Assembly: GCA_946480655.1 (NCBI GenBank)
Contig: CAMLKN010000007.1
Coordinates: forward strand, 1-21,569
From: an uncultured Devosia sp.
GTDB taxonomy: Bacteria > Pseudomonadota > Alphaproteobacteria > Rhizobiales > Devosiaceae
Direction of reading: 5' to 3'
DNA: 21,569 nucleotides
Shown here: positions 164-17,110 of the stretch, in pieces
Layout: each line of letters begins with the position of its first letter
How positions within the stretch are numbered: position 1 is the stretch's first letter
The notes under the pieces: generated by a model
Seen by the model: the letters and a program-made list of their open reading frames with translations, nothing else
Database searches by the model: none
Told to the model about the DNA's origin: nothing
Program-made: the position numbers and the translations under genes

Positions 164-1669
164 TCAGTCCTCCTCGACGAACACTTCCGCCCGCTTCTTG
201 CGAATGCTGGGCAGCACCGCCACGATCACCGCCGCCAGCGCCATGGCCAACAGCGTCGCCGAGATCGGCCGCTCGATGAAGATCATCGGGTCGCCGCGCG
301 AGATGATCATGGCGCGCCGCAAATGCTCTTCCAACAGCGGCCCCAGCACGAAGCCCAGCAAGAGCGGCGCCGGTTCGCAGCCGAAGCGGATGAGCAGGTA
401 TCCCACGATGCCGAAGAAGGCGATGGCATAGATGTCGTAGATGTTCTGGTTGATCGAGAACGTGCCGATACAGGCGAACAGCACAATCGCCGGGAACAGC
501 ACGCGATAGGGGATGGAGAGCATCTTCACCCAGAGCCCGATCAGCGGCAGGTTGAGGATGACCAGCAGCAGGTTGCCGACCCACATCGAGGCGATGATGC
601 CCCAGAACAGCGCCGGCTGTTCGTTTATGACATTGGGGCCCGGCGTGATGCCCTGAAGGATGAAGGCCCCGATCATCAATGCCATCACCGGATGGGCGGG
701 AATGCCAAGCGTCATCAGCGGAATGAATGATGTCTGCGCCGCCGCATTGTTGGCAGATTCCGGCCCGGCCACGCCCTCGATGGCGCCCTTGCCGAATTCC
801 TGCGGATTCTTCGACAGCCGCTTTTCCGCCGAATAGGAGGCGAAGGCCGAGAGGATGTGACCGCCACCGGGCAGGATTCCCAGCACCGAGCCCAAGCCCG
901 TGCCACGCAGCACCGGCATTATGATGCGCTTGAAGTCGTCGCGCGTCAGCCAGAGGTTCTTGACCTCCTTCACACCCACTTCGCGCTCATGCTCGTTTTC
1001 GAGATTCTTGAGGATTTCCGCGACACCGAACACCCCCACCGCCACGGCCACAAAATTGAGCCCACCGAAGAGCTCGCGCAGGCCGAAGGTGAAGCGCGGC
1101 GTGCCGGTATAGATGTCCTGCCCCACCATGCCGAGCAGCAGCCCCAGCACGATCATCGCCAGGGCCTTGAGGATCGAGCCATGCGCCAGCGCGATGGAGA
1201 CGAGCAGGCCCAGGACGATCAGCGAGAAATATTCCGGCGCGCCAAAGTTGAGAGCCGCCCGCGCCAGCGGCGGGGCAAAGGCAGCGAGGAGGAAGGTCGC
1301 CACCGAACCGGCAAAGAAGGAGCCGATTGCCGCCGCCGCCAGCGCCGGGCCCGCACGACCCTTGCGGGCCATCTGGTAGCCGTCGATCGCCGTCACGGCT
1401 GCCGAGCTCTCGCCCGGCAGGTTGATGAGGATGGCAGTGGTCGAACCGCCATACTGGGCGCCGTAATAGATGCCCGCGAGCATGATCAGCGCGGTTTCCG
1501 CATTGAGCGAAAAGGTGATGGGCAAGAGCATGGCGATGGTGGCCGTCGGCCCGATGCCGGGCAGCACGCCCACCAGCGTGCCCAGCAGCACGCCGATGAA
1601 ACAGTAGAGAATGTTGACCGGGTCGAAGGCGACCGAAAAGCCCAGGGCGAGAGAGGAAAAGAGGTCCAT
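164..1669 (-). CDS. tctA: Tripartite tricarboxylate transporter, large permease TctA
   Basis: This 501-residue, very hydrophobic protein is the usual length for TctA. The N-terminal signature [20 protein letters not shown] is at about residues 38-57, preceded by the first membrane helix. A second Pro/Gly-rich stretch ([20 protein letters not shown], about 257-276) is the internal repeat of that motif, as in the family. About ten to twelve membrane segments are visible. TctA is the main channel subunit of a secondary transporter that takes up a carboxylate delivered by the periplasmic TctC. It is the last gene of the tctC-tctB-tctA run. The ATG lies just after a strong GGAGG ribosome site, 11 bp past the tctB stop, so the two are cotranscribed. 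The substrate cannot be told from sequence. Confidence 0.95.
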
Positions 1670-1680
1670 TCATCAGCCTC

Positions 1681-2142
1681 CTAGAAACGCAGCCAGGGGC
1701 CGACCAGCGGCACCAGCATGCCCAGGCCGACGACGAAGATGAGGTAGCAGAGCAGAGTGAGCCCCACCGAGATGACCAGCGCCGACAGCAAATTGTTGCG
1801 GCGCGAGGAGAGCGCCGTGGCGAAGGCGGAGATCAGTACCACCGGGATGAAACCAAGGCCCCTGATGGTGGCGGCAAAGAACACGATCGTGCCCAGCACC
1901 AGCGCAATTCCGCGCCATGGCCAGGGCGCCGGTGCGTCTTCATCCGGCTTGCCGATGCCCTTGGCGACCACCGCAATGCCCAGGGCGATCAGCACGCCCC
2001 CCAGCACGATCGGCATGAAGCCGGGGCCCATGCGGAATGGCGTGCCGAATTCGTATCGCATCGCCTCCAGCGCAAAATAGGCGCCGAAGGCGACGAAGAT
2101 CGCCCCTGATGCCAGATCGTTCTTCGATGCGTTGAGTGCCAT
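1681..2142 (-). CDS. tctB: Tripartite tricarboxylate transporter, small permease TctB
   Basis: The protein has 153 residues with about four membrane helices. It has the usual TctB opening: a short polar N-terminus, a helix ending in ALEAMRYEFGTP, then RMGPGFMPIVLGGVLIALG. The F-R-M-G-P-G-F-M-P segment is the family signature. The reading frame is open upstream to 2262, but I place the start at 2142. That ATG follows a GGGGGAG ribosome site at good spacing, and the 40 extra residues upstream come from the intergenic repeat and are low-complexity. TctB is the small membrane partner of TctA. It is separated from the upstream tctC by about 220 bp that carry a large palindromic repeat. Confidence 0.92.
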   Translation of the reverse strand: MALNASKNDLASGAIFVAFGAYFALEAMRYEFGTPFRMGPGFMPIVLGGVLIALGIAVVAKGIGKPDEDAPAPWPWRGIALVLGTIVFFAATIRGLGFIPVVLISAFATALSSRRNNLLSALVISVGLTLLCYLIFVVGLGMLVPLVGPWLRF

Positions 2143-2193
2143 GACTCTCCCCCAATCCTGTAGTGTCACAGATCTTGTCCAACCCACAGAGGC

Positions 2194-2297
2194 GGCACCT
2201 CCCCCTTGACGAGGGAGGATGGGAGGGGGTGCGGGAGCCACGGCAGCCGCGTCCTTTGGCACCCCTCCCCAACCCTCCCCGTCAAGGGGAGGGTGCG
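2194..2297. repeat. Large intergenic palindromic repeat (REP-like, two G/C-rich hairpins)
   Basis: Two arms about 45 bp long, rich in runs of C and G, are near reverse complements of one another. Each arm also folds alone. At 2198-2218 CCTCCC pairs with GGGAGG. At 2273-2293 CCCTCCCC pairs perfectly with GGGGAGGG across the loop GTCAA. The core words CTTGACG and GTCAAGG occur in mirror positions. The style matches short palindromic intergenic repeats that I recall being scattered in Hyphomicrobiales genomes. It lies between tctC and tctB within one transcript, where it could lower expression of the permeases relative to the binding protein. There is no T-run, so it is not a classical terminator. 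Confidence 0.75.
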
Positions 2298-2362: not shown

Positions 2363-3343
2363 TTACTGCGCGGACACGCCCGCGGCAGCGATCACCTCAG
2401 CCCAGAGGCCGATCTGACCTTCGAGCTTTTCGGCCAGTGCGGCCGGGGTCGCCTGGTCGGCCGGCACCGGATAGGTCCCGAGCTCGGCAAAGCTGTTGCC
2501 CACGGTCTCATCGGCCAGGGCAGCCTGCAGCGAGGCCGTCAGGCGCTCGATAATGGCCGGATCGGTGCCGGCCGGGGCGTAAAGACCGTGCCAGATGGAG
2601 AGGTTGAAGTTTTCGAGACCACCTTCGGCCAGCGTCGGCAGGTCGGGCAGCACGGCAATGCGTTCCGGCGTGGTGACGGCATAGGCCTTGATCTCGCCGG
2701 CCTGGATCTGGTTGGTCGTATTGGTGGTCTGGTCGCACATCATGTCGATCTGGCCGCCGAGCAGGTCGGTCATGGCCGGACCAGTACCCTGATAGGGCAC
2801 TTCGGTCATCTTGACGTCCAGCGCATCCATGATCAGCAGGCCGCAGAGCTGGCTGGCGGCACCGATGCCGGCATTGGCATAGGTGACATTCTCGCCGTTC
2901 TCCTTCACATAGGCGATGAGGTCTTCCAGCGTCGCCGGTTCGAAATCCTTGCGCGCCACCACCGTCATCGGCACCTCGGTGACGAGGCCGATCGGGGCAA
3001 AGTCTTCCATCGGGCTATAGGGCAGGCTGGCATAGAGGGCCGGCGCGGTCGACATGCCGATATGGTGCAGCAAGAGCGTGTAGCCGTCATTGGGCGCCGC
3101 CGCCACCTGGCCCGCGCCCAGCGTACCGCCGGCGCCACCCACATTCTGCACCACGACCTGCTGGCCCAGATCCTCGCTCATGGCGGCGGCCACCAGGCGC
3201 GTCACCGTGTCGGTCGGGCCGCCGGCCGAGAACGGGACCACGATGGTCACCGGCTGGGTCGGGTAGTCCTGCGCCATGGCGACGGAGCCGAGTGCCGAAG
3301 TGGCGACGAGGCCGAGAGCGAGCGTCTTGAAGATGGTCTTCAT
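2363..3343 (-). CDS. tctC: Tripartite tricarboxylate transporter substrate-binding protein TctC (Bug family)
   Basis: The 326-residue periplasmic binding protein starts with a Sec signal peptide: positive MKTIFK, a hydrophobic core, and an AMA cleavage site at about residue 24. The mature start is typical of Bug proteins: YPTQPVTIVVPFSAGGPTD, with the G-G-x-x-D of the carboxylate-binding loop. Further on are the GGAGGTLGAG-type loop and the YVKENGENVTYANAG region seen across the family. The frame is open further upstream, but the ATG at 3343 has a GGAGGA ribosome site and gives a clean signal peptide. It is the first gene of the transporter operon and lies under a sigma-54 type promoter. Bug proteins bind diverse carboxylates, so the ligand is unknown. 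Confidence 0.95.
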   Translation of the reverse strand: MKTIFKTLALGLVATSALGSVAMAQDYPTQPVTIVVPFSAGGPTDTVTRLVAAAMSEDLGQQVVVQNVGGAGGTLGAGQVAAAPNDGYTLLLHHIGMSTAPALYASLPYSPMEDFAPIGLVTEVPMTVVARKDFEPATLEDLIAYVKENGENVTYANAGIGAASQLCGLLIMDALDVKMTEVPYQGTGPAMTDLLGGQIDMMCDQTTNTTNQIQAGEIKAYAVTTPERIAVLPDLPTLAEGGLENFNLSIWHGLYAPAGTDPAIIERLTASLQAALADETVGNSFAELGTYPVPADQATPAALAEKLEGQIGLWAEVIAAAGVSAQ

Positions 3344-3397
3344 GGTGGTTGTATCCTCCCAAGTTTCAGATTGTCCCCGATGTCCTCCCCGGGGGAT

Positions 3398-3412
3398 CCC
3401 GGCTTGTCCGGG
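3398..3412 (-). other. Short hairpin at the predicted 5' end of the tctC mRNA
   Basis: CCCGG and CCGGG pair around a 5-nt loop. With the transcription start expected near 3416 from the -24/-12 promoter, this stem would sit at roughly +5 to +19 of the leader. It may protect the messenger 5' end. The pairing is visible but the role is inference. Confidence 0.4.
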
Positions 3413-3426
3413 CTCGCTCCCAACAA

Positions 3427-3442
3427 TGCAAACCCCGTGCCA
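3427..3442 (-). promoter_or_regulatory. Sigma-54 (-24/-12) promoter for tctCBA
   Basis: On the minus strand the sequence reads TTGGCACGGGGTTTGCAT, matching the RpoN consensus TGGCACG-N4-TTGCA at every defined position. The invariant GG (3441-3440) and GC (3429-3428) are exactly 10 bases apart. Transcription should start near 3416, about 73 bases before the tctC ATG. A sigma-54 promoter needs an AAA+ activator, and one is encoded next door (5413-6759). Confidence 0.9.
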
Positions 3443-3493
3443 AGCCAAAATTGCAAGGCAGATATGCAATCGCGGCCGATCGTGTTAACTCAG

Positions 3494-3511
3494 TTGGCAA
3501 GAACTTGCCAA
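3494..3511. promoter_or_regulatory. Activator site 1: perfect inverted repeat upstream of tctC
   Basis: TTGGCAAGAACTTGCCAA has two 8-bp arms that are exact reverse complements around an AA centre. It is centred about 86 bp upstream of the predicted tctC transcription start, a normal place for an enhancer site of a sigma-54 activator. The neighbouring DctD-like regulator is the obvious candidate to bind it, which is inference. Confidence 0.8.
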
Positions 3512-3526
3512 AACCGGCACGGTTGA

Positions 3527-3544
3527 TCGGCAAAATCTTGCCAA
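3527..3544. promoter_or_regulatory. Activator site 2: second copy of the inverted repeat
   Basis: TCGGCAAAATCTTGCCAA matches site 1 at 15 of 18 positions and keeps the dyad (6 of 8 arm pairs). The two sites start exactly 33 bp apart, about three helical turns, so two activator dimers would lie on the same DNA face. Site 2 ends 12 bp before the sensor kinase ATG and could also autoregulate the kinase-regulator operon. Confidence 0.75.
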
Positions 3545-3556
3545 ATCGAGAGGAAG

Positions 3557-5416
3557 ATGGCGACAAACGGCACCCGTTGGCTGGGTCTCGTCGCCCCCCG
3601 GCATATCTGGGCCAGCGGGGCGGTGCTGGCGCTCGTCCTGATGGTCTTCTGGATCGCTTTCGAGCTGACGCTGAGCGCGGCGGTCCGCGACGCCGAGACC
3701 CAGGCCCAGCGGCGCCTGGCCCTCTTCGACCGCACGCTTGAAGCCATTATCGAGCGCTATCACTACCTGCCCGTCGCCATTTCCCAGGCGCCTGAAACAC
3801 GGGCCGCCCTCGAAAACCCCGGCGATCCGGGCGCCATCGAGGCCGCCAACGGGTTTCTCAGCCGACTCAATGAGACCGCGGGCGCCAGCGAGATCTTCCT
3901 CATGGAAGATGCCGGCAGCGTCGTTGCGGCCAGCAATTGGTGGACCCTGACCAGCCTTGTGGGGACCAATTATTCCTTCCGGCCCTATTTCGCCGATGCG
4001 ATGGCACGCGGCCGGGCCGAATATTACGCCTTCGGCATTTCCACCAGTGTGCCGGGCCTGTTCCTGTCGCAGCGCGTCGAGGGGCCGGACGGGCCGCTGG
4101 GCGTCGCTGTCACCAAGATCAACCTGGGCGAAATCGAAGCGGCCTGGTGGCGCTCGGGGGAACTGATCGGCATCGTCGATGTCAACGACGTCGTCATTCT
4201 CTCCACGCGCCCCGACTGGCGATACCGTCCGCTCCAGACCATCCCGCTGACCCAGGTCGCCGCCATTTCCGGCCAGCAGCGCTATGGCGAGAACGGCATC
4301 GACAATACCGGCATCATCACCGATCGCTGGTTCTCGCGCGGTGCTGAATTCGCCCTCCTCGCTGGCGCCGATCCGGAAACTAGCGGCTATTTCGTGCTGC
4401 GCGAACTGCGCCTGCCCAAGCATGGCTGGCGGCTCCTCTCCTTCTCGCCGCTCGCTCCGCTCTATGGCGGCGCGCTGACCATGGCCACCGCCGCAGCCCT
4501 GGCCTGCGCCGCCCTTGTGCTGATCGTCGTGCTCTTCGAGCAACGCCGGCGGCTCGTTGCACAGCGGTTGGCCGACCACAACCAGCTCGAGCAGCGCGTG
4601 GCCGAACGCACCGAAGATCTCCACGCCATGAACGAACAGTTGCGCGCCGAGATTGCCGAACGTGTGCGCGCCGAAAGGGCCGAGGAAGACGCCCAGCAGG
4701 GTCTCATCCAGGCCGCCAAGCTCGCCAGTCTAGGCCAGGCCCTTGCGGGCGTTGCGCACGAAGTCAGCCAGCCTGTCGCCGCCCTCGCGACCCACATGGC
4801 CAGTGCCCGCCTTATCGAACAGCGCCGCGGCGGCACCGAGATGGGGCCGATCCTGACTGCCATGGACAAGGTCGTGGAGCGCCTGGCCAATCTCACCGGC
4901 CATTTGAAGACTTTCGCGCGCAAGGAGAAGCACGGCGTCATGCAGGCCGATATCGGAGCGGTCATCGCCAATGCCCTCGACCTCACGGACCACCGGCTGA
5001 GGCAAGTGGGCATCGATATCGAATACCGCCGTCCCCGCCCACCCATCGGCGTCAGGGCCAATCCGGTTCACCTCGAACAGGTGCTGATCAATCTCATCGC
5101 CAATGCCGCCGATGCAATGGAGGAGACGCCGATGCGCGTGCTCTCCATCGGCGTTTCAAGTGAAGGCGGCACGGCCCGCATCGCCATTTCCGACACCGGC
5201 ATTGGCATTGCCGAGGCCAATATGGCGACCCTGTTCGATCCCTTCTTCACCACCAAGCCCGCCGGCAAAGGCCTCGGGCTTGGCCTCGCCATTTCCTATG
5301 GCCTCGTCCGCGACGCGGGCGGCACCATCACCGCCCGCTCAAAGCCCGGCCAGGGCAGCACATTCACGATCACCTTGCCGGCAATCGCCGCCGCGAACGC
5401 GAAAGTCTCCGCATGA
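3557..5416 (+). CDS. DctB-like C4-dicarboxylate/carboxylate sensor histidine kinase
   Basis: The 619-residue membrane kinase has the DctB layout. A helix lies at about 17-39, then a periplasmic double-PAS (dCache) sensor at about 40-300, a second helix at about 303-328, a charged coiled coil at about 335-385, HisKA, and HATPase. The sensor contains SNWW, GTNYSFRPYF and VAVTKIN, the same landmarks as DctB, where an Arg and a Lys at these places hold the carboxylate (here R142 and K187, by similarity). The phospho-acceptor is H401 in AGVAHEVSQPVAAL. The ATP site has N512/N516, DTGIG at 546-550 and KGLGLGLAIS. The ribosome site GAGAGGA lies just before the ATG. The stop overlaps the next ATG by 4 bp (ATGA), indicating coupling with the response regulator. 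It probably senses the substrate of the divergent transporter. Confidence 0.9.
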   Translation: MATNGTRWLGLVAPRHIWASGAVLALVLMVFWIAFELTLSAAVRDAETQAQRRLALFDRTLEAIIERYHYLPVAISQAPETRAALENPGDPGAIEAANGFLSRLNETAGASEIFLMEDAGSVVAASNWWTLTSLVGTNYSFRPYFADAMARGRAEYYAFGISTSVPGLFLSQRVEGPDGPLGVAVTKINLGEIEAAWWRSGELIGIVDVNDVVILSTRPDWRYRPLQTIPLTQVAAISGQQRYGENGIDNTGIITDRWFSRGAEFALLAGADPETSGYFVLRELRLPKHGWRLLSFSPLAPLYGGALTMATAAALACAALVLIVVLFEQRRRLVAQRLADHNQLEQRVAERTEDLHAMNEQLRAEIAERVRAERAEEDAQQGLIQAAKLASLGQALAGVAHEVSQPVAALATHMASARLIEQRRGGTEMGPILTAMDKVVERLANLTGHLKTFARKEKHGVMQADIGAVIANALDLTDHRLRQVGIDIEYRRPRPPIGVRANPVHLEQVLINLIANAADAMEETPMRVLSIGVSSEGGTARIAISDTGIGIAEANMATLFDPFFTTKPAGKGLGLGLAISYGLVRDAGGTITARSKPGQGSTFTITLPAIAAANAKVSA

Positions 5417-6759
5417 CTAGCCCCTCCGTTCTCATCGTCGATGACGAAGACATGGTGCGTACCGCGCTCGAGCAATGGCTGCGCCTTTCGGGCTTCGAAA
5501 CCGCCACCGCCGCCAATGCCCAGGAGGCGCTCACCGCCATTGATGACCGCCACCCCCATATCGTCTTGACCGACGTGCGCATGCCGGGCCTCTCCGGCAT
5601 GGACCTTCTGCGCACCATTGCCGAACGAGGCTTGCCCACCGAGGTCATCCTCATTACCGGCCATGGCGATGTTCCCATGGCGGTGGAAGCCATGCGGGCC
5701 GGCGCCTTCGACTTCCTGCAAAAGCCCTATGTCCCCGACCAGCTCGTCCATTCCATTTCCCGTGCCGCCGAGCAGGCCCGGCTGAAACGCGAACTGGCCG
5801 ATCTCCGCCGCAAGCTCGATGGCGGCGCCAATGAGCTCTCCACCCGCCTCGTCGGTGCCTCCCGCGTCATGGAGGACTTGCGCCGCTCCGTGCTCGAACT
5901 GGCAGCCATTCCGGCCGACATCATCCTTCTGGGCGAGACCGGCACCGGCAAGGAAGTGGTCGCGCGCTGCCTTCACGATTTTTCGCCCCGGGCCAAGGGT
6001 CCCTTCGTGGCGGTCAACTGCGCCGCCATTCCCGCCGAACTCATTGAAAGCGAGCTTTTCGGCCACGAAGCCGGCTCCTTCACCGGCGCATCGGGCCAGC
6101 GGGTGGGTAAATTCGAATTCGCCAATGGCGGCACGCTGCTGCTCGACGAGATCGAATCCATGCCCATGCTGGCCCAGGCCAAGGTGCTGCGCGTGATCCA
6201 GGAGCGCGTGGTCGAGCGCCTCGGCTCCAACAAGCAGGTGCCGCTCGACCTCAGGATCGTCGCCGCATCCAAGGTCGATCTCGCCGCCGAAAGCCAGGCC
6301 GGCCGCTTCCGTGCCGATCTCTACTATCGTCTCAACATGGCCACCCTCGACCTGCCGCCCCTGCGCGACCGGGGCGATGATTGCGTCATCCTCTTCCACC
6401 ACTTCCTGGGGGAAGCCTCCCGGCGCTTTGGCCGTCCGGCCCCGGCCCTGCACCCGGCCGATCTCAGCGCCCTGCTCTCCCACACCTGGCCGGGCAATGT
6501 GCGCGAACTCAAGGCCGCCGCTGATCGCTTCGCCCTAGGGCTGGGCGCTACCGGCCGCTCCATCGGCGACATTCTCGGCCAGCGCCTGCCCTCGCCATCG
6601 GGTGAGAGCCTCGCCGAACGCCTCGCCGCCTATGAACGACACCTGATCGAGACCGAACTCGACCGAAACAATGATTCCATCGCCGCCACCGCCGAAGCCC
6701 TGCAAGTGCCCCGGCGGACCCTGAGCGAGAAGATGACCCGTCTCGGCGTCCGGCGTTAA
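5413..6759 (+). CDS. DctD-like sigma-54-dependent response regulator (NtrC family)
   Basis: The 448-residue three-domain activator has a receiver at 1-120 with acidic D11-D13, phospho-site D54 (VLTDVRMPG) and K104. The AAA+ domain at about 140-380 has Walker A GETGTGK (174-180), Walker B LLLDE (242-246) and the arginine region RFRADLYYRL. A Fis-type helix-turn-helix at about 405-447 ends the protein (NNDSIAATAEALQVPRRTLS). The sigma-54 contact loop reads GSFTGA (221-226) instead of the usual GAFTGA, a mild change next to the essential F and T. The gene is cotranscribed with the DctB-like kinase. Its likely targets are the paired inverted repeats at 3494-3544 and the -24/-12 promoter of tctC. 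It belongs to the DctD branch, but the target here is a TctCBA transporter and not DctA. Confidence 0.93.
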   Translation: MTSPSVLIVDDEDMVRTALEQWLRLSGFETATAANAQEALTAIDDRHPHIVLTDVRMPGLSGMDLLRTIAERGLPTEVILITGHGDVPMAVEAMRAGAFDFLQKPYVPDQLVHSISRAAEQARLKRELADLRRKLDGGANELSTRLVGASRVMEDLRRSVLELAAIPADIILLGETGTGKEVVARCLHDFSPRAKGPFVAVNCAAIPAELIESELFGHEAGSFTGASGQRVGKFEFANGGTLLLDEIESMPMLAQAKVLRVIQERVVERLGSNKQVPLDLRIVAASKVDLAAESQAGRFRADLYYRLNMATLDLPPLRDRGDDCVILFHHFLGEASRRFGRPAPALHPADLSALLSHTWPGNVRELKAAADRFALGLGATGRSIGDILGQRLPSPSGESLAERLAAYERHLIETELDRNNDSIAATAEALQVPRRTLSEKMTRLGVRR

Positions 6760-6823: not shown

Positions 6824-7648
6824 ATGATCCCGATTATCGACACCCACCTGCACCTCGTCCTTCCAGACCGGTTTTCCTATCCCTGGATCTCCGAAGGCCA
6901 CCCCCTCAACCGCCCTTGGACCATCGAGAGCTATCTCGCGGAAGCCCGACCCCTGGGCATCGAGGGTGCGATCCACATGGAAGTCGATGTGGCAGAGGCC
7001 GACATCGAGGACGAGACGCGCTATGTGCTGCATCTCGATGGCATTGTCGGCGCGGTAGCGGCCTGCCGGCCTGAGCACGCGGATTTTCCGGCGCAACTGG
7101 AGCGCCTGGTGTCGATGTCCGGGGTGCGCGGCTTGCGCCGCATCCTGCACGAGTCGCCTGACGACCTCAGCCAGACCGCCCTTTTCACCGACAATCTCCG
7201 GCGCCTCGCGCAGTATGGACTCAGCTTCGACCTTGTCGTCCGCCACGACAAGCTGCCCGTGGGCGAAGCCCTCGTTCGCCGCTGTCCGGACGTGACCTTC
7301 ATCCTCGACCATTGCGGCGCGCAATATATCGACCTCAACCAGCCTGGCGACTGGCGGGACAATATCCGTTCCCTGTCGCGGCTGCCCAATCTCAATGCCA
7401 AGGTCTCGGGCCTGATGGCCTATGCCGGCCCAAGCTGGTCCATCAACCAGCTCCGCCCCTTTGTCGAACACATTATCGAATGCTTCGGCTGGGACCGCGT
7501 CGTCTGGGGCTCCGACCATCCCGTGGTCACCCTGGGCGGCTCGCTCACCGACTGGGTCAACGCCACCCGCGAGATCATCAAGGGCGCCAGCGCGGACGAA
7601 CAGGCCCGATTGCTCCACGCCAATGCGCGCCGGATCTACCGGCTCTGA
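6824..7648 (+). CDS. Amidohydrolase family 2 protein, lactonase-like (COG3618 type)
   Basis: The 274-residue TIM-barrel hydrolase starts MIPIIDTHLHL, giving the metal-binding H-x-H (H8, H10). Other likely active-site residues are H109 in RRILHE, H163 in FILDHCGAQ and D231 in VVWGSDHPV. The C-terminal LLHANARRIYRL is the usual family ending. Relatives include L-fuconolactonase, sugar-acid lactonases and 2-pyrone-4,6-dicarboxylate lactonase. Which reaction it performs cannot be decided from sequence. It lies 64 bp after the response regulator on the same strand, beside a carboxylate transporter and a hydroxypyruvate-isomerase tail. A role in opening a lactone of a sugar acid or aromatic breakdown product, whose carboxylate the transporter handles, is plausible. 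The ribosome site is weak. Confidence 0.85.
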   Translation: MIPIIDTHLHLVLPDRFSYPWISEGHPLNRPWTIESYLAEARPLGIEGAIHMEVDVAEADIEDETRYVLHLDGIVGAVAACRPEHADFPAQLERLVSMSGVRGLRRILHESPDDLSQTALFTDNLRRLAQYGLSFDLVVRHDKLPVGEALVRRCPDVTFILDHCGAQYIDLNQPGDWRDNIRSLSRLPNLNAKVSGLMAYAGPSWSINQLRPFVEHIIECFGWDRVVWGSDHPVVTLGGSLTDWVNATREIIKGASADEQARLLHANARRIYRL

Positions 7649-7687: not shown

Positions 7688-7727
7688 GCCTGTCGATTGT
7701 CGACGGGCATTCGGCGCTGTGGGCGCC
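7688..7727. terminator. Two adjacent hairpins between convergent genes, possible bidirectional terminator
   Basis: At 7688-7708 GCCTGTCGA pairs with TCGACGGGC over a TTG loop (9 pairs, one of them G-U). At 7713-7727 GGCGC pairs with GCGCC over five bases. They lie between the amidohydrolase stop and the ligD stop, where both transcripts must end. Neither side has a T-run, so this is not a standard intrinsic terminator. Confidence 0.4.
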
Positions 7728-10264
7728 TACGCAGCAGGACGTGTCTCCGGCAGCGCCTGCTTCTGGCGGAAGTAGTTTGGCCAGGCCTTGTCCTGTGCCC
7801 TCTCAATGGCGGCGGCGAGGGAGAACCCATTCGCCGCCCTCAGTCGGGGGACCTCATCCCATTCCACGGGAACCGCCACAGGCGCCCCTTGCCTTGAACG
7901 GACAGACCACGGGCAGATTGCGGTCGAGCCACGCTCATTGCGCAGATAGTCGATGAAGAGTCGCCCCTCGCGCCGCGCCTTGGAAAGGCTGGCAGTGAAC
8001 CGCTCCGGCTCAGCTTCGGCCATGGATTGCGCGAAAGCCTTGCAGAAGGCCTTCACCTCGGGCCACTCGGCCTCCGGCCTCAGCGGCACCACCACATGCA
8101 TGCCCTTGCCGCCCGACACCATGGGAAAGCTGGTGAGCTTGAGGGCCTTGAGCCGGTCCCGGATGTCCAGGGCGGCCGAGCCGATCTTCGAAAAGTCGAG
8201 GCTTTCGTCGGGGTCGATGTCGAAGACGAGCCGGTCGGGGCGCTCGACCGTGTCGAAATGCGACCCCCAGATATGCCATTCGAGCACGTTCATCTGCGTG
8301 CCGGCCACGAGGCCCGCCAGATCCTCAACGTAGAAATAGTCCTTCCTGTCCCCATCCTTCTCGGCAAGGGTCCTCGAACGCAACTGTTCGGGAAATCCCC
8401 CCGTGTCGTGCTTCTGGAAGAAGCAATGCTTGGTCCGGCCCTGCGGGCAGCGTACCAGGCTCAGTGGTCGGTCCCTGATATGGGGCAGCATGGCCTCAGC
8501 GACGGCGTCATAATACTCGACCAGTCTGGCCTTGGTGATGCCTTGGCCGGGATAGACCACCCGCTCCGGCGAGGTCAGCCGGACGCCGAGCTTGGCCGCG
8601 ATGGACGCGCCGTCACTTCCTTTCTGCGGAGCCTTTTCCAATCGCACCTCCCTGGCGGGTTTGTCGTCGCGAAGGCCGATGAAGCTGGGATGGCGCAGGA
8701 CTCCGTCGGGCGTGAATTCAGTAAAGCCAATCTCGGCAACGAGGTCCGGCTTGACCCAGTACGCATCCCGGGCGCGCTCGTCGGGGACGGCATCGAATGG
8801 GCTGGTCTTGCGAGCCAGTCTCTTGAGTTTCTGGTCAATCTCCACCAAGAGATCCTGATTGAAGCCCGTCCCGACCCGACCACGATAGACAAGCTTGCCG
8901 CCCTCCCAACTGCCCAACAGGAGCGAGGCAAAGCCGCGACGCTTACTGGACGGAGACCAGCCGCCGATCACGAATTCCTGCCGCTTGGAGCATTTTATTT
9001 TGAGCCAATCCCTGCTGCGCTCGCCGCGATAGGGCGCGTCGGCGCGTTTTGCGATGACCCCCTCGTGGCCGTCGCGGCAGAGGGCGTCGAGAACCGCCTG
9101 GCCATGCTGGCGGACATGGGAAGAATACTGGATCGGCTCCTCGCGGCCCGGACCCGCAAGCAGCTTTTCGAGCCTCGCCTTGCGCTCGATGAGCGGGAGG
9201 CCGGTCAGGTCCTCCCCATGGGACTGCAGCAGATCGAAGGCGAAAAACTCCAGCCGACCGCCGTCGGACAGAACCGATTTGAGGGTCGAGAAATCGGTCC
9301 GACCCTTTTCGTCGAAGGCACAGATCTCGCCGTCGATGAGCGCGGATTTGAGCTTGAGTTTCTGGAACGGCTTGACCAGGGCACCGAACTGCTCCGTCCA
9401 GTCGAGGCCATTCCTGGTATAGAGCCGGACGCTCTCGCCGTTGACCGCCGCGAGACACCGATAGCCGTCATATTTCATTTCGAACAACCAGCCCTCGCCC
9501 GTGGGCACGCTGTCGACCAGCGTCGCCAGTTGCACGGGCCGGAAGCCCGGCACCTTGCCGCCGGCAGCCGAGGCAAGAATGCGCGTCTGCTGGTCGGCCT
9601 TCTCTGCCTCGTCCGGATCGGAATGCCAGACCGCTTCGGCAGGCGTCTGCCCTTTGGCCGGTTTGGCACCATTGGCAATCTGCCTGAAGTCCCGTCCGCT
9701 TTCGACGGACCTGGTGAACCGCGTGGTCAAGGTATCCTTGTCTCGCGCATAGCTGTCGCGATGCTTGATCAGCAGCCAGTTTTCGCGGTCGGGGGCCGCA
9801 CGGCGTTTCGTGTCGCGGCCCTTCATGTGGACCAGCACATATTCGCCCTTCATGCGCTCGCCGAAGAGGCGAAACTTGAGATCGCCGCCTTCGAGCCCCT
9901 CATGCGGATCGCCGATGGGCTCCCAGGTCCCACGGTCCCAGAGCATGACAGTCCCACCGCCATATTCGCCCTCGGGGATCGTGCCTTCAAAGCCACCATA
10001 TTCGAGCGGATGGTCCTCGACGCGGACCGCCAGCCGCTTGTCCGCAGGATTGTTGGATGGCCCCTTGGTCACGGCCCAGCTTTTGAGGACGCCGTCCAGC
10101 TCCAGCCGGAAATCGTAGTGCAGGCGGGTCGCATCATGCTTCTGCACGACGAAACTGCCACGTCCCCCGCCCGCCTTCGGCGCCGCGCCCGCAGGCTCCT
10201 GGGTGCGCGCAAAATTGCGCTTGGCCTTATAGTCCTTGAGCAGGTCCGACGCCTTTGCCGGCAT
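7727..10264 (-). CDS. ligD: ATP-dependent DNA ligase LigD (phosphoesterase-ligase-polymerase)
   Basis: The 845-residue end-joining enzyme has all three LigD domains in the Pseudomonas-type order. The 3'-phosphoesterase domain (about 35-175) shows HDATRLHYDFRLE with H43, H49, D51 and R53, then EDHPLEYGGFEG with H85 and Y89, the known metal and phosphate ligands. The ligase domain (about 240-545) has the adenylation motif EMKYDGYR with the lysine at K264, then DGEICAFD, GHEGVIAKR and WLKIK. The polymerase/primase domain (about 565-835) has FDIDPD (D682, D684), SGGKGMHV (H723) and IDYLRN (D772). All catalytic residues look intact. It works with Ku to process and seal double-strand breaks. The ATG lies 2 bp past the ku stop, so the two form one operon. 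Confidence 0.97.
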   Translation of the reverse strand: MPAKASDLLKDYKAKRNFARTQEPAGAAPKAGGGRGSFVVQKHDATRLHYDFRLELDGVLKSWAVTKGPSNNPADKRLAVRVEDHPLEYGGFEGTIPEGEYGGGTVMLWDRGTWEPIGDPHEGLEGGDLKFRLFGERMKGEYVLVHMKGRDTKRRAAPDRENWLLIKHRDSYARDKDTLTTRFTRSVESGRDFRQIANGAKPAKGQTPAEAVWHSDPDEAEKADQQTRILASAAGGKVPGFRPVQLATLVDSVPTGEGWLFEMKYDGYRCLAAVNGESVRLYTRNGLDWTEQFGALVKPFQKLKLKSALIDGEICAFDEKGRTDFSTLKSVLSDGGRLEFFAFDLLQSHGEDLTGLPLIERKARLEKLLAGPGREEPIQYSSHVRQHGQAVLDALCRDGHEGVIAKRADAPYRGERSRDWLKIKCSKRQEFVIGGWSPSSKRRGFASLLLGSWEGGKLVYRGRVGTGFNQDLLVEIDQKLKRLARKTSPFDAVPDERARDAYWVKPDLVAEIGFTEFTPDGVLRHPSFIGLRDDKPAREVRLEKAPQKGSDGASIAAKLGVRLTSPERVVYPGQGITKARLVEYYDAVAEAMLPHIRDRPLSLVRCPQGRTKHCFFQKHDTGGFPEQLRSRTLAEKDGDRKDYFYVEDLAGLVAGTQMNVLEWHIWGSHFDTVERPDRLVFDIDPDESLDFSKIGSAALDIRDRLKALKLTSFPMVSGGKGMHVVVPLRPEAEWPEVKAFCKAFAQSMAEAEPERFTASLSKARREGRLFIDYLRNERGSTAICPWSVRSRQGAPVAVPVEWDEVPRLRAANGFSLAAAIERAQDKAWPNYFRQKQALPETRPAA

Positions 10265-10266
10265 GA

Positions 10267-11169
10267 CTAGCTCGCTTTCTTGCGGGGCGCACTGCCAGTG
10301 GGCTTCCGAGCCTTCGGCTGGCTAGGGGTGGGTTTCCCGGCCGGCTTACGGCGCGCGGTAGACCGGCTCTTCGCGCCGCCTTCCAGGCTCTCCTTGAGGG
10401 CGGCCATGAGGTCAACCACATTGGCCCCGCTCGGACGTTTGGGTTCATCATCTTCGTCGGCGGTGATCTTTCGGCCCTTGTTTTTCATCTTGCGCTTGAT
10501 GAGGTCGTGGAGCGCCGCCTGATAGTGATCCTTGAAGGCGGTAGCATCGAACTTGGCGGACTTCTTCTCGATCAGGGCCGTGGCCACTTCGAGCAGGTCC
10601 GGTTCGGCCTTCTTGTTCGAGATCTGCGAGAAGAAGGGGTCGGCCTTGCGGATTTCGTCCTCGTAGTGAAGCGTTTCCAGCATCAGGCCGGTTCCGCTCG
10701 GCTTGATGGCCGCCAGGTATTCCTTGCCGCGCATGGCCAGTTGCCCAAGGCCCACTTTCTGCGTCTCGCGCAGGGCATCGCGGATCACCCGGAAGGCATC
10801 CTCGGCCAACTCGTCCGTGGGCACAACGAAGTAGGCCTTATCATAGTAGATCGGGTCGATCTCACAGGCGCCGACGAACTGCGTCAGCTCAAGCGTCTTG
10901 CGTGTTTCAAGCTTGACCGCATCGATCTCCTCGTCGGTCAAAAGGACGTAGTCGCCCTTTTCATATTCAAAGCCTTTGATGATCTCGTCCTTGTCGACCG
11001 GACCGACCCCTGCGACGACCTTTTCATAGTGGATCGGCTTGCCGGTCGGCTCATGGATCTGCCGGAAACTGGGCTTGGCGCTGGTCCGCGCTGCACTGAA
11101 GAGTTCAACCGGGATGGACACCAGGGAGAGGCGCAACTGGCCTTTCCAGATCGGACGGGTGGCGGGCAT
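10267..11169 (-). CDS. ku: Non-homologous end joining protein Ku
   Basis: The 300-residue bacterial Ku starts MPATRPIWKGQLRLSLVSIPVELF, the standard opening. It has YEKVVAGVGPVDKDEIIKGFEYEKGDYVLLTDEEI in the bridge region and ends in a lysine/arginine-rich tail (about 265-300), as in Ku proteins that contact LigD and DNA. The frame is open another 34 codons upstream, but the ATG at 11169 has a GAGGAG ribosome site and begins exactly at the conserved sequence. Ku forms a dimeric ring on broken DNA ends and recruits LigD, encoded immediately downstream. An EcfG-type promoter sits about 30-50 bp upstream of the start, suggesting induction in stationary phase and stress. Confidence 0.97.
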   Translation of the reverse strand: MPATRPIWKGQLRLSLVSIPVELFSAARTSAKPSFRQIHEPTGKPIHYEKVVAGVGPVDKDEIIKGFEYEKGDYVLLTDEEIDAVKLETRKTLELTQFVGACEIDPIYYDKAYFVVPTDELAEDAFRVIRDALRETQKVGLGQLAMRGKEYLAAIKPSGTGLMLETLHYEDEIRKADPFFSQISNKKAEPDLLEVATALIEKKSAKFDATAFKDHYQAALHDLIKRKMKNKGRKITADEDDEPKRPSGANVVDLMAALKESLEGGAKSRSTARRKPAGKPTPSQPKARKPTGSAPRKKAS

Positions 11170-11197
11170 GGGCGGCTCCTCGCGTGATTCGCGACTC

Positions 11198-11222
11198 AAC
11201 GCAGCGTTGCACTGCCCGTTCC
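11198..11222 (-). promoter_or_regulatory. General-stress (EcfG/RpoE2-type sigma) promoter for ku-ligD
   Basis: On the minus strand GGAAC (11222-11218) is followed after exactly 16 bases by CGTT (11201-11198). This is the full consensus of promoters used by the alphaproteobacterial general-stress sigma factor EcfG. Transcription would start near 11190, about 20 bases ahead of the ku ATG. The general-stress link agrees with what I recall of some Sinorhizobium ku genes being in the RpoE2 regulon. Confidence 0.75.
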
Positions 11223-11242
11223 GTCCAATCACGCAAAGCGCG

Positions 11243-11267
11243 GGAACGTTCTTTCCCACCAGGCATT
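11243..11267 (+). promoter_or_regulatory. Possible EcfG-type promoter for topoisomerase IB
   Basis: GGAAC (11243-11247) is followed after 16 bases by CATT, one mismatch from CGTT. The predicted start near 11275 lies about 20 bases before the topoisomerase ATG, mirroring the ku promoter on the other strand. The match is weaker than its divergent partner. Confidence 0.4.
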
Positions 11268-11293
11268 GCAAAGCCGTTCATGAGGCAAATTCG

Positions 11294-12340
11294 ATGCAAC
11301 TGGCCAGGATCGTTCTCGACAGGATGCGCGCTGACGAAATCGGCCCGGCGCCGAAGCTCGTCTTTTCCTGCGACCTGGACACGGGGTGGCGGCGCGTCCG
11401 GCACGGCACGGGGTTCGCCTATCGCGCCGAGGACGGCAGCCGGCCCGACAAGGACGAAATCGCCCGGATCAGGGCCCTGGCCATTCCCCCCGCATGGACC
11501 GACGTCTGGATCTGCCGCGATGCCTGCGGGCATATCCAGGCAACCGGCCGCGACGAACGGGGGCGCAAGCAGTATCGCTACCACGCCGAGTGGACCGAAC
11601 ACCGCAGTACCACCAAGTTCGATACGCTCATCGACTTCGCCAAAGCCCTGCCCGGCCTTCGCGCCCAGGTTGAGCAGGATCTGCGCCGACGCTCGCTCGG
11701 CTATGAGCGCGTGGTCGCCTCCGTCGTCTGGCTTCTCGACAACAGTCTCATTCGCATCGGCAATCCCACCTATGCCGAGCAGAACAAGAGCTTTGGTCTC
11801 ACCACCTTGCGGCGCCGCCATGTCGACATCGCCGGCCCCCGTCTGACATTCCGGTTCAAGGGTAAATCCGGCAAGCTGTGGCGCCTGCAACTGGCCGACC
11901 GGCGCATCGCCAATATCCTCAAGTCCCTGCAGGACCTGCCGGGCCAGCACCTGTTCAAATACGAGAATGATGGCGCTGTCTGCGCGATCTCGTCCCGGGA
12001 TGTGAACGACTACCTGGCCGCCTTTGCCGGCCCTGGCTTCACCGCCAAGCATTTCCGCACCTGGGCGGGGACCGTTCGCGCCTTCGGCCTCTTCGTGGAC
12101 ACGGAGGTGCCCGACACGAAAGCTGCCCGCACTCGCACCATGAATGCAGTGATCGACCAGGTGGCCGCACGGCTCGGCAATACGCGGACAGTGTGCCGGC
12201 AGGCCTATGTGCATCCGGCGATCCCGGAATGCTGGCAAGCGGGCACTCTGCGCCGGTCGGGTCGATTGAAGCCGGTGGACGGCCTCGACGCGGACGAGGT
12301 GGAAACCGTGGCCTTCCTCAAGCGCCTGAAATCGACCTGA
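11294..12340 (+). CDS. DNA topoisomerase IB (poxvirus-like bacterial type)
   Basis: The 348-residue enzyme relaxes supercoils by nicking one strand through a 3'-phosphotyrosine. Visible landmarks are KDEIARIRALAIPPAW (about 53-68), GRDERGRKQYRYHAEW (about 85-100), LIRIGNPTYAEQNKSFGLTTL with R154, FKGKSGK (about 188-194) containing the general-acid lysine, AKHFRTW with R255, and the catalytic tyrosine Y305 in VCRQAYVHPAI. All core residues known from the vaccinia and Deinococcus enzymes seem present. I chose the ATG at 11294 because GAGG lies about 8 bases upstream and the protein begins at the conserved domain. It is divergent from ku-ligD with 124 bp between the starts. Confidence 0.93.
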   Translation: MQLARIVLDRMRADEIGPAPKLVFSCDLDTGWRRVRHGTGFAYRAEDGSRPDKDEIARIRALAIPPAWTDVWICRDACGHIQATGRDERGRKQYRYHAEWTEHRSTTKFDTLIDFAKALPGLRAQVEQDLRRRSLGYERVVASVVWLLDNSLIRIGNPTYAEQNKSFGLTTLRRRHVDIAGPRLTFRFKGKSGKLWRLQLADRRIANILKSLQDLPGQHLFKYENDGAVCAISSRDVNDYLAAFAGPGFTAKHFRTWAGTVRAFGLFVDTEVPDTKAARTRTMNAVIDQVAARLGNTRTVCRQAYVHPAIPECWQAGTLRRSGRLKPVDGLDADEVETVAFLKRLKST

Positions 12341-12361
12341 CGTCGCGGCTGACACATCGGT

Positions 12362-12375
12362 TTGATCTCGAACAA
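12362..12375. promoter_or_regulatory. FNR/FixK box upstream of hemN
   Basis: TTGATCTCGAACAA matches TTGAT-N4-ATCAA at 9 of 10 defined positions. Its centre (12368.5) puts a class II start near 12410, 26 bases before the hemN GTG. The FixK-like regulator at 14080-14745 is the likely binder. Confidence 0.7.
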
Positions 12376-12435
12376 ATAGCCCCGCGCAGCGGCTGGTATA
12401 TCGGCACCGACAGCTTCAGCAGCGAGTTTGGATCG

Positions 12436-13791
12436 GTGACCACATCAGCCCGCGACCTTGTCGAACGCTATTCCGTTCCGGTGCCGCGCTATACCAGCTA
12501 TCCCACGGCACCCCATTTCCATACCGGCATCGGACCGCAGACCTACGCGCATTGGCTGGGCAGTCTGGCCCCCGACGCGACCATCTCGCTCTACCTCCAT
12601 ATCCCTTACTGCGACCGCCTTTGCTGGTTCTGCGGCTGCCATACCAAGCACACGCTGCGCTACGAGCCGGTCGCAGACTATCTTGAGGCGCTCTACGCGG
12701 AAATCGACTGGGTGAGTGACAAGCTGGCCGGGCGCGGGCGCGTCACCGCCATCCATCTCGGGGGCGGCTCGCCGACCCTGGTCTCCGCCGAAGACCTGCT
12801 GACGCTCAAGGCCAAGCTCTCGCGAGCCTTCAATCTGACCGAGGGCGTGGAAATCAGCATCGAGATCGACCCCAACGATCTCGATGAGGGGCGCTACGAC
12901 GCCATGGCCGCCTTCGGCCTTACCCGTGCCAGCCTCGGGGTGCAGGATTTCGATCCTCGGGTGCAGAAGGCGATCAATCGGCTGCAAAGTTTCGAGCAGA
13001 CCCGCGCCGTGGTCGATGCCATGCGCGCGCGCGGCGTCGCATCGGTCAATCTCGACCTCCTCTACGGCCTTCCCTTCCAGACCGAGGCGGGCCTTGCCCG
13101 GACGATTTCGGCGGCCCTCGAGTTGAGGCCCGATCGCGTTGCTCTCTTCGGCTACGCCCATGTCCCCTGGATGAAGCCGCATCAGAAGATGATCCCGGAA
13201 GACGCCCTGCCCGATCGTCACGCCCGCTTTGCCCAGGCCATGCTGGCTGGCGACAAGCTCTTGGACGCCGGCTTTGACCCCATCGGTTTCGATCATTTCG
13301 CCCTGCCCGATGACACGCTGGCCAAGGCGGCGCGGCAGGGCCGGTTGCGGCGCAACTTTCAGGGCTATACCGACGACGCCGCCGATGCCTTGATAGGGTT
13401 GGGCGCGTCGGCTATTGGCCAATTGCCGCAGGGCTATGTGCAGAATATTACTGCCACCGGCGAGTATGCCAAGGCCGTACGGGCAGGATCGGGCGCTACT
13501 GCCAAGGGTTTTGCGCTGACACCGACGGACAAGCTGCGCGCGCGCGCCATTGCCACGCTCCTCTGCACATTCCGGCTCGAAGAGCGCGACCTGGCCGGCT
13601 TCGGCGCAGCCGCAACGGCCCTGATGCACGAAGCAGCGGCGACAGCGCTGACCGACCCGGATGGGCTGACGGAAATGCGGGATGGGGCCTTTGTCGTGAC
13701 CGAGCGAGGCCGCCCCTTCGTGCGCACCATAGCGGCCCGCTTCGACACCTATCTAGGTTCGGGAACCGCTCGTCACTCGGCAGCCGTTTGA
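12436..13791 (+). CDS. hemN: Oxygen-independent coproporphyrinogen III oxidase (radical SAM)
   Basis: This 451-residue radical SAM enzyme oxidatively decarboxylates coproporphyrinogen III to protoporphyrinogen IX without oxygen. HemN is normally about 455 residues. The protein opens with RYSVPVPRYTSYPTAPHF, the HemN signature. The iron-sulfur motif is YCDRLCWFCGC (C59, C63, C66, plus the extra C68 typical of HemN). The glycine-rich SAM segment is HLGGGSPTL, and SIEIDPNDL and DLLYGLPFQT follow. The frame is open upstream into the topoisomerase gene, but GTG 12436 gives the conserved N-terminus and lies just beyond an FNR/FixK box. Its ribosome site is weak. It supplies heme for the cbb3 oxidase and sensors when oxygen is low, matching the rest of this cluster. 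Confidence 0.96.
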   Translation: MTTSARDLVERYSVPVPRYTSYPTAPHFHTGIGPQTYAHWLGSLAPDATISLYLHIPYCDRLCWFCGCHTKHTLRYEPVADYLEALYAEIDWVSDKLAGRGRVTAIHLGGGSPTLVSAEDLLTLKAKLSRAFNLTEGVEISIEIDPNDLDEGRYDAMAAFGLTRASLGVQDFDPRVQKAINRLQSFEQTRAVVDAMRARGVASVNLDLLYGLPFQTEAGLARTISAALELRPDRVALFGYAHVPWMKPHQKMIPEDALPDRHARFAQAMLAGDKLLDAGFDPIGFDHFALPDDTLAKAARQGRLRRNFQGYTDDAADALIGLGASAIGQLPQGYVQNITATGEYAKAVRAGSGATAKGFALTPTDKLRARAIATLLCTFRLEERDLAGFGAAATALMHEAAATALTDPDGLTEMRDGAFVVTERGRPFVRTIAARFDTYLGSGTARHSAAV

Positions 13792-15565: not shown

Positions 15566-17110
15566 CTATCCTCCGAGGGCCTCGGCAATCGCATTGGCCA
15601 GATCCGCCAGGCGGTAGGGTTTGCCCAGCACCTTCAGATGAGCGATGGCATCGGCATCGCGCCGCACCAGTTCGTCCGCATAGCCCGAAGTCAGCAGCAC
15701 CGGTAGTCCCGGCCAGTCCTGAGCGACGCGGTGGGCCAGTTCATATCCAGACATGCCGCCGGGCATGACGAGGTCGGTAAAGACCAGGTGGACTTCTGCG
15801 CCGCTGCCCAGCACAGCCAGCGCCTCATGTGCATCGGCAGCGACCAGGGTTGCGTAGCCGAGTGTTTCGAGCCGATTGACAGTGAGCTTGCGCACTCGCG
15901 GGTCGTCCTCGACCACCAGGATGGCCTTGCCGGCCACGACCGGCCCGGTCGACTCCAGCTCTTCGGCCTGGACATTCGCCGCACCATGGCGGGGCAGGTA
16001 GATATTGACCGTCGTGCCCCGTCCCGGCTCGCTATAGATCGTGGCGTGCCCGCCTGATTGCTTGGCAAATCCGTAGATCATGGAGAGACCGAGCCCCGTG
16101 CCGCGACCCTTCTCCTTGGTGGTGAAAAACGGCTCGAAGGCGCGCTCGCGGACCGAGGCGGGCATGCCCATGCCGGTATCGGCAACCGAAAGACGCACAT
16201 AGTCGCCCGGCGCCAGCGCATCGAGGTCCTCCGACATTGCTCCATCCACCGTCACGTTCCCAGTCTCGATGATCAGCCGTCCGCCCTCGGGCATGGCGTC
16301 GCGCGCATTAACGGCCAGATTGACGATGGCGCTTTCCACCTGCGACGGGTCGATGCGCGTGGACCACAGGCGCGGCGTCAGCGCATTGGAAAGCGCGATG
16401 GTCGACCCCATCGTGCGGTGCAGCATGTCGGTGAGGCCGAGCACGAAATCATTGAGGTTAACCACTTCCGGCTCGAGGTGCGAACGCCGGGCAAACGCCA
16501 GAAGCCGTGCCGTCAGCCTCGCTCCGAGATCGGCCGCCTCCAGCGCCTCGGTCGCCAGTTCCCGCTGGCCAGCAGTGGTCAATCTGGCTTCGAGCATCTC
16601 CAGGTTGCCAATGATGACGGTCAAGAGGTTGTTGAAGTCATGGGCAATGCCGCCGGTCAGCTGTCCCATCGCCTCCATCTTCTGTGCCTGGCGCAGGGCC
16701 TGTTCGGTGGCCTTCTGACCCGACAGATCATGGATGATACCGGTGAAATGCACCCGCCCATCCATCTCGAATTCGCTGACCGCCAGGTGCATGGGGAAGG
16801 TCGAGCCATCGCTGCGCTGGCCGGTGACCTCGCGGCCGATGCCGATGATCTTGCGCGCGCCCGTGCTTCGGTAATTGGCGATATAGCCATCATGAGCCGA
16901 ATGGTAGGGCTCAGGCATGAGGAAATGGACGTTCCGGCCGATGAATGCGTCCTGCGGATAGCCGAACAACCGCGCCGCAGCGGGATTGACGGTCGTGATG
17001 ATGCCGCCACCATCGATGGTGATAATAGCATCCACCGCCGACTCCAGCATGGCCTGCAGCTTGCGGGCCTGGCCGATAAGGGCGGTATGGTCGTCTTGCG
17101 GTTCGGTCAC
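15566..17110 (-). CDS. FixL-like heme-PAS hybrid histidine kinase with C-terminal receiver
   Basis: The 514-residue soluble sensor has PAS (about 15-130), HisKA (about 140-210), HATPase (about 255-375) and a receiver (about 395-512). The PAS carries the FixL heme signature [14 protein letters not shown] followed by [12 protein letters not shown] and [10 protein letters not shown]. The heme-ligating His of Bradyrhizobium FixL (H200) aligns with H73, and its oxygen-contacting Arg (R220) aligns with R93, with the same 20-residue spacing, so it should bind oxygen. The phospho-His is H157 in [11 protein letters not shown], an HDFNN-type box unlike the HELNQPL of classical FixL. DTGMG (311-315) and GRGTGLGLS mark the ATP site. 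Receiver D446 and K497 are present. There is no membrane helix. The start is GTG. It probably signals to the adjacent OmpR-type regulator. Confidence 0.9.

Follow-up and report, generated by a model that had tools for sequence, protein, structure and literature searches.

A DctBD-style sigma-54 circuit very probably controls a tripartite tricarboxylate transporter (TTT) in an uncultured Devosia species, as judged from the sequence of a 21,569-nucleotide stretch of its DNA (the window) and of the corresponding loci in related genomes. A switch of this type, best known from a different nutrient pump, seems to be wired to a TTT in Devosia-like bacteria, which would extend sigma-54 enhancer control to the TTT family; in the open-licence full-text literature, outside of which most subscription journals lie, we found no description of sigma-54 control of a TTT that could serve as a precedent. 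The parts of the circuit, their conservation, their near-fixed geometry and their joint absence from other loci are features of the DNA itself.

Results

A complete TTT gene set lies divergent from a DctB/DctD-like gene pair

The genes for the three TTT subunits are encoded on the minus strand of the window (Table 1), and with TctC, TctB and TctA all above their Pfam cut-offs the transporter gene set is complete. Upstream of tctC and pointing away from it lie a kinase and a regulator gene that overlap by 4 bp, so that coordinates, strands and Pfam matches bear out the initial annotation, which had placed a divergent DctB/DctD-type pair next to tctC. The sensor of the kinase aligns with the solved S. 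meliloti DctB (residues 50-300, 1e-37) and is in this respect DctB-like, with a match to dCache_1 of 30.2 bits, below the Pfam cut-off. Among the best 120 of 517 kinase homologues, the closest are 91-95% identical, those of Devosia 81-85% and one from Pelagibacterium 80%. The regulator consists of a receiver (Response_reg), a Sigma54_activat domain (6.8e-65) and a helix-turn-helix (HTH_8; 21.7 bits, 1.7e-4, just under the Pfam cut-off). Its AAA+ domain carries the loop GSFTGA, which completes the domain set of an enhancer-binding protein (bEBP).

An amidohydrolase gene (PF04909) follows at 6824-7648, 64 bp downstream of the regulator gene, and pieces of a homologue are present at the corresponding position of L083, L085 and L100, where the fetched stretches end. 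Further neighbours recognised by Pfam are a LigD-type ligase and Ku (7727-11271), a radical-SAM protein (12193-13791), a PAS hybrid kinase (15566-17110) and a heavy-metal P-type ATPase with FixH/FixG genes (17949-21567).

Table 1. Features of the tctCBA locus and its intergenic region (window coordinates).
Feature	Position	Strand	Evidence
tctA, transporter large membrane subunit	164..1669	-	Pfam TctA 3.2e-161
tctB, transporter small membrane subunit; GTG start uncertain	1681..2262	-	Pfam TctB 1.1e-20
tctC, periplasmic solute receptor	2363..3343	-	Pfam TctC 3.4e-60; nearest solved structure BugD 1.5e-103
GGAGGA, likely tctC ribosome-binding site	3354..3359	-	sequence reading; conserved in relatives' alignment
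-24/-12 (sigma-54) promoter element of tctCBA	3427..3442	-	0 mismatches
TGCAAGGCAGATATGCA-like conserved block between promoter and proximal dyad	3452..3468		conserved columns, alignment including L083-L141
Proximal dyad, putative enhancer site 1 of the regulator	3494..3511		TTGGCAAGAACTTGCCAA, 0 mismatches
Distal dyad, putative enhancer site 2 of the regulator	3527..3544		TCGGCAAAATCTTGCCAA, 2 mismatches
DctB-like sensor histidine kinase	3557..5416	+	HATPase_c 1.3e-24; sensor against solved DctB 1e-37
DctD-like response regulator: receiver, AAA+ with GSFTGA, Fis-type HTH	5413..6759	+	Pfam, motif, tree

A perfect -24/-12 element and two upstream dyads occupy the intergenic region

Read on the minus strand from 3442 to 3427, the sequence TGGCACGGGGTTTGCA agrees with TGGCACGN4TTGCW at every position and shows the GG-N10-GC arrangement within TGGCAY and TTGCW that marks a sigma-54 promoter. 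It is the sole -24/-12 site without mismatch in the window, and the perfect element aimed at tctC that had been proposed from the sequence is thereby confirmed. Allowing up to 2 mismatches gives four sites in the window against 4.07 expected from shuffles; taken alone, just the perfect match is notable, and the main evidence for the promoter is comparative. Placed some 12 bp beyond the -12 element in the direction of tctC, the +1 would lie at about 3416. A search of 3300-3620 for a consensus sigma-70 promoter found none, although this counts for little in alphaproteobacteria, whose promoters depart from that consensus.

Upstream of the promoter stand two inverted repeats of 18 bp each, 33 bp or about three helical turns apart, whose centres fall at about -86 and -119 relative to the presumed +1, in agreement with the positions given in the initial annotation. 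At a limit of 3 mismatches the window yields these two sites and no others, against 0.05 expected, and two such dyads occurred in 0 of 100 shuffles. The binding motif put forward with them, TTGGCAAG-N2-CTTGCCAA, is exact in the window but turned out to be the window's own version of a dyad whose family-wide core is GGCAA-N4-TTGCC. Tandem dyads at a fixed distance suggest a regulator that acts via upstream sites.

In an alignment of the intergenic regions the background has largely diverged; what stands out against it is the promoter, the dyads, the ribosome-binding site and one more block. The latter, the TGCAAGGCAGATATGCA-like block, is altered in L125, L127, L129, L130, L132-L134, L138-L141 and L143. 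A CGTG-TTAAC-like block lies at 3481-3490. Either block could belong to the kinase promoter or be the site of another factor.

Promoter and dyads are conserved together within one GTDB family

The survey covered the 136 genomes of one GTDB family, one per species. An orthologue of the kinase (E<=1e-120) is found in 49 of them, and a tctC relative lies divergently beside it in all 48 cases with upstream sequence, the 49th ending at a contig edge. Fifty regions were scanned, made up of the 48 family regions, the window and a frameshifted copy (L143); left out were L088-L096, whose kinases are 35-39% identical and which have no tctC match, L131, which is cut by the contig, and L087, which lies outside the family and was analysed apart. 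In L143 (genome G360) the matches to tctC, kinase and regulator are split by frameshifts or sequencing errors, and the promoter and dyads are kept.

The scan used TGGCAYRN4TTGCW for the promoter and GGCAAN4TTGCC for the dyad core, with wildcards picked after the family had been seen and on regions that share descent; in these terms the promoter has no mismatch in 45 of the 50 regions and one in 5, the proximal core has none, one or two in 31, 14 and 5, and the distal core in 37, 7 and 6, respectively. Matching of the full-length dyad with 5 mismatches misses the pair in 6 of the 48 family regions, all of which are recovered by the core-based scan. The geometry is nearly invariant: the dyads are spaced by 33 bp in 38 regions and by 32 bp in 12, and the centre of the proximal dyad lies 74 bp from the -12 element in 41 regions, 73 or 75 bp in 4, and 87 or 88 bp in 5. 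The last group, L138-L141 and L143, also has a promoter with one mismatch and a distal core with two, and forms a weaker, shifted subgroup. Dyad conservation in orthologous intergenic regions had been set beforehand as a test of the proposal, which it passed, with the promoter and dyad pair present in 50 of 50.

These numbers bear on the reading of the whole pattern as a chance resemblance. The background level of loosely matching -24/-12 sites in the window speaks for it, but the shuffled windows never held two dyads, and the comparison across the family refutes it: the mismatches of promoter and dyad pair sum to 0-3 in every one of the 50 regions, while dinucleotide shuffling, repeated 1,000 times, left 882 sequences that lacked a qualifying promoter and gave no total below 8 among the others. 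Chance is therefore hardly credible as an explanation.

The position of the dyads directly in front of the kinase gene raises another reading, in which they are mainly autoregulatory operators of the kinase/regulator operon, and sigma-54 together with some other enhancer-binding protein drives tctC. In the window, 12 bp separate the distal dyad from the kinase ATG; in relatives, where the starts are taken from alignment, this gap is estimated at 3-47 bp. However, this gap varies, while the distance to the tctC promoter is held at 73-75 bp in 45 of the 50 regions, and tandem dyads with the spacing seen in the family are also found at Neorhizobium dctA and at L087. We consider mainly autoregulatory dyads unlikely; the near-fixed distance to the promoter favours an enhancer role, to which autoregulation may be added.

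The promoter and dyads are absent where the kinase/regulator pair is absent

A tctC homologue (E<=1e-90) occurs in 53 of the 136 family genomes, six of them without a kinase match. One of the six, G360, has the same system in frameshifted form (L143). The 12-kb stretches fetched for L142 and L144 contain no such kinase/regulator pair, and at L145-L147 tctCBA is accompanied by a different one. None of these five loci contains the promoter (up to 3 mismatches, GG and GC fixed) or the dyad pair; if GG and GC are not fixed, L144 offers a promoter-like site at 2 mismatches, with a best total of 12. The promoter and dyad set is likewise absent from the paralogous loci L149-L151.

Genome-wide, the exact pair GGCAAN4TTGCC-N18/19-GGCAAN4TTGCC is found in 19 of the 136 genomes, once in each, and 18 of the 19 lie at the tctC promoter; a control with the reversed pattern gave no match in the 136 genomes. 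In the other genomes with the kinase/regulator pair, the dyad pair carries mismatches. The strict core GGCAAGWWCTTGCC has 8 sites among 10 genomes with the kinase/regulator pair (four of the ten have none), 7 of them at the tctC promoter, and no site in 5 genomes without the pair. With the exact pair and the strict core nearly confined to this promoter, the regulator looks dedicated and local. The sole exact dyad pair located elsewhere (L148, G325:C8:992276-992321) is close to where a peptidase-like reading frame begins. The sole strict-core site located elsewhere (G329:C1:1784141-1784154) marks a possible second target.

It is conceivable that the dyads are instead bound by some other protein, either a repressor or a further regulator, since their recognition by the DctD-like regulator is a prediction and the conserved block at 3452-3468 may bind another factor. 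Against this, the dyads are present together with the kinase/regulator pair and absent at the five loci missing it, and the strict core hardly occurs away from tctC, which makes a different binder improbable, more so than the autoregulatory reading.

The regulator retains the GAFTGA-loop threonine and belongs to a clade of its own

Every regulator in which the loop can be read, 49 of 49 with the window's included, retains its threonine (L136 ends before the motif), with the variants GAFTGA (22), GAFTSA (13), GSFTGA (8), GAFTGS (5) and GAYTGA (1). According to PMC4641369, GSFTGA is present in response regulators of D. vulgaris with assigned targets. A sigma-54 gene was found in all 20 relatives searched, the match in G375 being in two pieces.

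In a maximum-likelihood tree of a chosen subset of 57 regulators, parts of whose backbone are not resolved, the clade of the window (100/99), class B described below (100/100) and the annotated DctD proteins (100/100) are all separate. The regulator had been called DctD-type in the initial annotation, and this holds insofar as it is DctD-like; it is not a DctD orthologue, and the pair is better described as DctBD-like in working. The recognition helix, like the operator letters, changes by clade (PRRTLSEKM, PRRTLNEKM and PRKTFYDKL, in few cases). A search of genome contigs with the regulator returned mostly generic sigma-54 regulators; among the loci of the 80 matches retained out of 588, only L013 had tct genes.

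The solved structures nearest to TctC are BugD and 6hke (1.6e-75), the latter a structure of MatC, a protein that binds C4-dicarboxylates. The name MatC for 6hke is given in PMC13390454, and BugD was crystallised with aspartate (PMC5812351). By this likeness, signal and cargo would be C4-dicarboxylate or aspartate-like, so that a C4-acid or an amino acid is suggested as the substrate of the TTT.

Class B: GAFPGA regulators beside tctCBA

A second type of locus, class B, is found in Paracoccus (L152, L154), Shinella (L153), Rhizobium (L013), the family members L145-L147 and the paralogue L149. Here, too, a DctB-like kinase and a DctD-like regulator accompany a related TTT and an 18-bp dyad, but in contrast to the window all genes run in one direction with the pair upstream of tctC, the loop threonine is replaced by proline, -24/-12 elements are mostly missing and the regulators form a separate clade. 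All 8 regulators read GAFPGA, and no -24/-12 element within 3 mismatches occurs in any of the 8 gaps. A search with one class B regulator gave 5,529 homologues, and in the best 120, all of them close relatives, the loop reads GAFPGA in 118, GAFLGA in one and GSFPGA in one.

In Rhizobiaceae, a class B regulator match (E<=1e-170) is present in 27 of 121 genomes (23 GAFPGA, 1 GAFLGA, 1 GVFPGA, 1 GAVSGA and 1 unread), bringing the class B set to L013, L145-L147, L149, L152-L154 and L159-L185. In 23 of the 27, tctC lies directly downstream of the regulator; a -24/-12 element within 2 mismatches occurs at only one of these 23 tctC loci, L161, where it has 1 mismatch, whereas 20 of them carry a TGGGTGGAWWTCCACCCA-like dyad (18 bp, up to 4 mismatches). 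The change of threonine to proline in the GAFTGA loop is reported, in PMC4641369 citing earlier work, to inactivate B. japonicum NifA. From loop and promoters, class B regulators have probably lost sigma-54.

Two further observations concern related operons. The Paracoccus and Shinella class B operons contain a second TTT solute-binding gene after tctA (L152 10555-11526, L153 10692-11684, L154 3049-4014), and in Martelella (L156) a related regulator is found next to a TRAP operon that has a perfect -24/-12 element.

The TctA proteins of L145 and L146 share 88% identity with the one encoded in the window, and that of L147 shares 89%, whereas the regulators are 46-48% identical, which indicates that transporter and control have been exchanged, the sensor-regulator module independently of the transporter. 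We lean towards a scenario in which distinct DctD-like clades took control of TTT operons on two or more occasions, one of the window type (class A: loop threonine, -24/-12 promoter, distant tandem dyads) that keeps sigma-54 and class B that lost it. If true, class B must act on another polymerase form from its own dyad, and the related TTTs under either logic in one family would amount to an experiment set up by nature on how control passes between the enhancer type and direct action at the promoter. The class B regulators, probably sigma-54-blind, would then be natural relatives in which to study a change of mode in enhancer-binding proteins.

Discussion

Taken together, the evidence points to a circuit in which the membrane kinase would sense a periplasmic carboxylate through its DctB-like domain and phosphorylate the response regulator. 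The regulator would bind the two 18-bp dyads, reach by looping the sigma-54 RNA polymerase that sits on the -24/-12 element, and open the tctCBA promoter by ATP hydrolysis. As the kinase gene begins just beyond the dyads, their occupation may also damp expression of kinase and regulator. Phosphorylation, binding, activation, autoregulation and signal we infer from the arrangement of the parts. In favour of the circuit, the same architecture recurs at annotated dctA/dctD loci and, in other dyad letters, at L087; the shifted subgroup (L138-L141 and L143) and the single exact core pair in 19 and single strict core in 8 that lie elsewhere count against it. The predicted operator, GGCAA-N4-TTGCC twice, 33 bp apart and 74 bp from the -12 element, can be tested.

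Described tctCBA systems include those controlled by TctD/TctE, an OmpR-type pair acting with sigma-70. The regulators of the TctD/TctE, BctDE and CitAB systems, in which a two-component system or regulator likewise controls a TTT, are OmpR-type or other. The regulator adjoining tctC in the window is instead of the NtrC family by Pfam. The initial annotation had named TctD/TctE as the control of described tctCBA systems; it is one such control and does not stand alone, as BctDE and C. glutamicum CitAB also control TTTs (PMC5812351). The available text of that source contains no mention of a sigma-54 promoter for the three systems and describes Bordetella BctC as itself taking part in signalling (PMC5812351).

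Also related are the DctBD-like pairs of Pseudomonas that govern carboxylate or amino-acid transporters, MifSR for alpha-ketoglutarate and AauSR for acidic amino acids, which differ from the window in transporter family and operator. MifR is described as acting with RpoN (PMC4482717); AauR is described as binding TTCGG-N4-CCGAA, and AauS as resembling DctB (PMC7386598).

In layout the counterpart is rhizobial DctA/DctBD, which shares with the window a transporter gene divergent from a kinase-regulator operon, a -24/-12 promoter, an upstream dyad and a DctB-like sensor; the window differs in having a TTT rather than DctA, a regulator of a separate clade and other dyad letters. In the S. meliloti pSymB record, the symporter gene is divergent from a kinase-dctD pair and has a perfect -24/-12 element, and 97 bp lie between its -12 element and the centre of the dyad TGTGCGGATTTCCGCACA. 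In Neorhizobium, dctA has a site at 95 bp and, 33 bp farther out at 128 bp, a second one that is imperfect and was read by eye. The rhizobial dctA dyads thus lie farther out, at 95-97 bp, than the dyad at 74 bp in the window. At L087, where tctC is 67% and the regulator 62% identical to those of the window, the promoter has one mismatch and the dyads TCGGCGGATTTTCGCCGA and TCGGCGGAAATCCGCCGA are 32 bp apart, the nearer one at 96 bp. As both the dctA loci and L087 match the layout of the window, the architecture is that of dctA, with operator letters changing by clade. The different control logic anticipated in the initial annotation is accordingly a logic already known from dctA/dctBD, and the new part is its coupling to a TTT.
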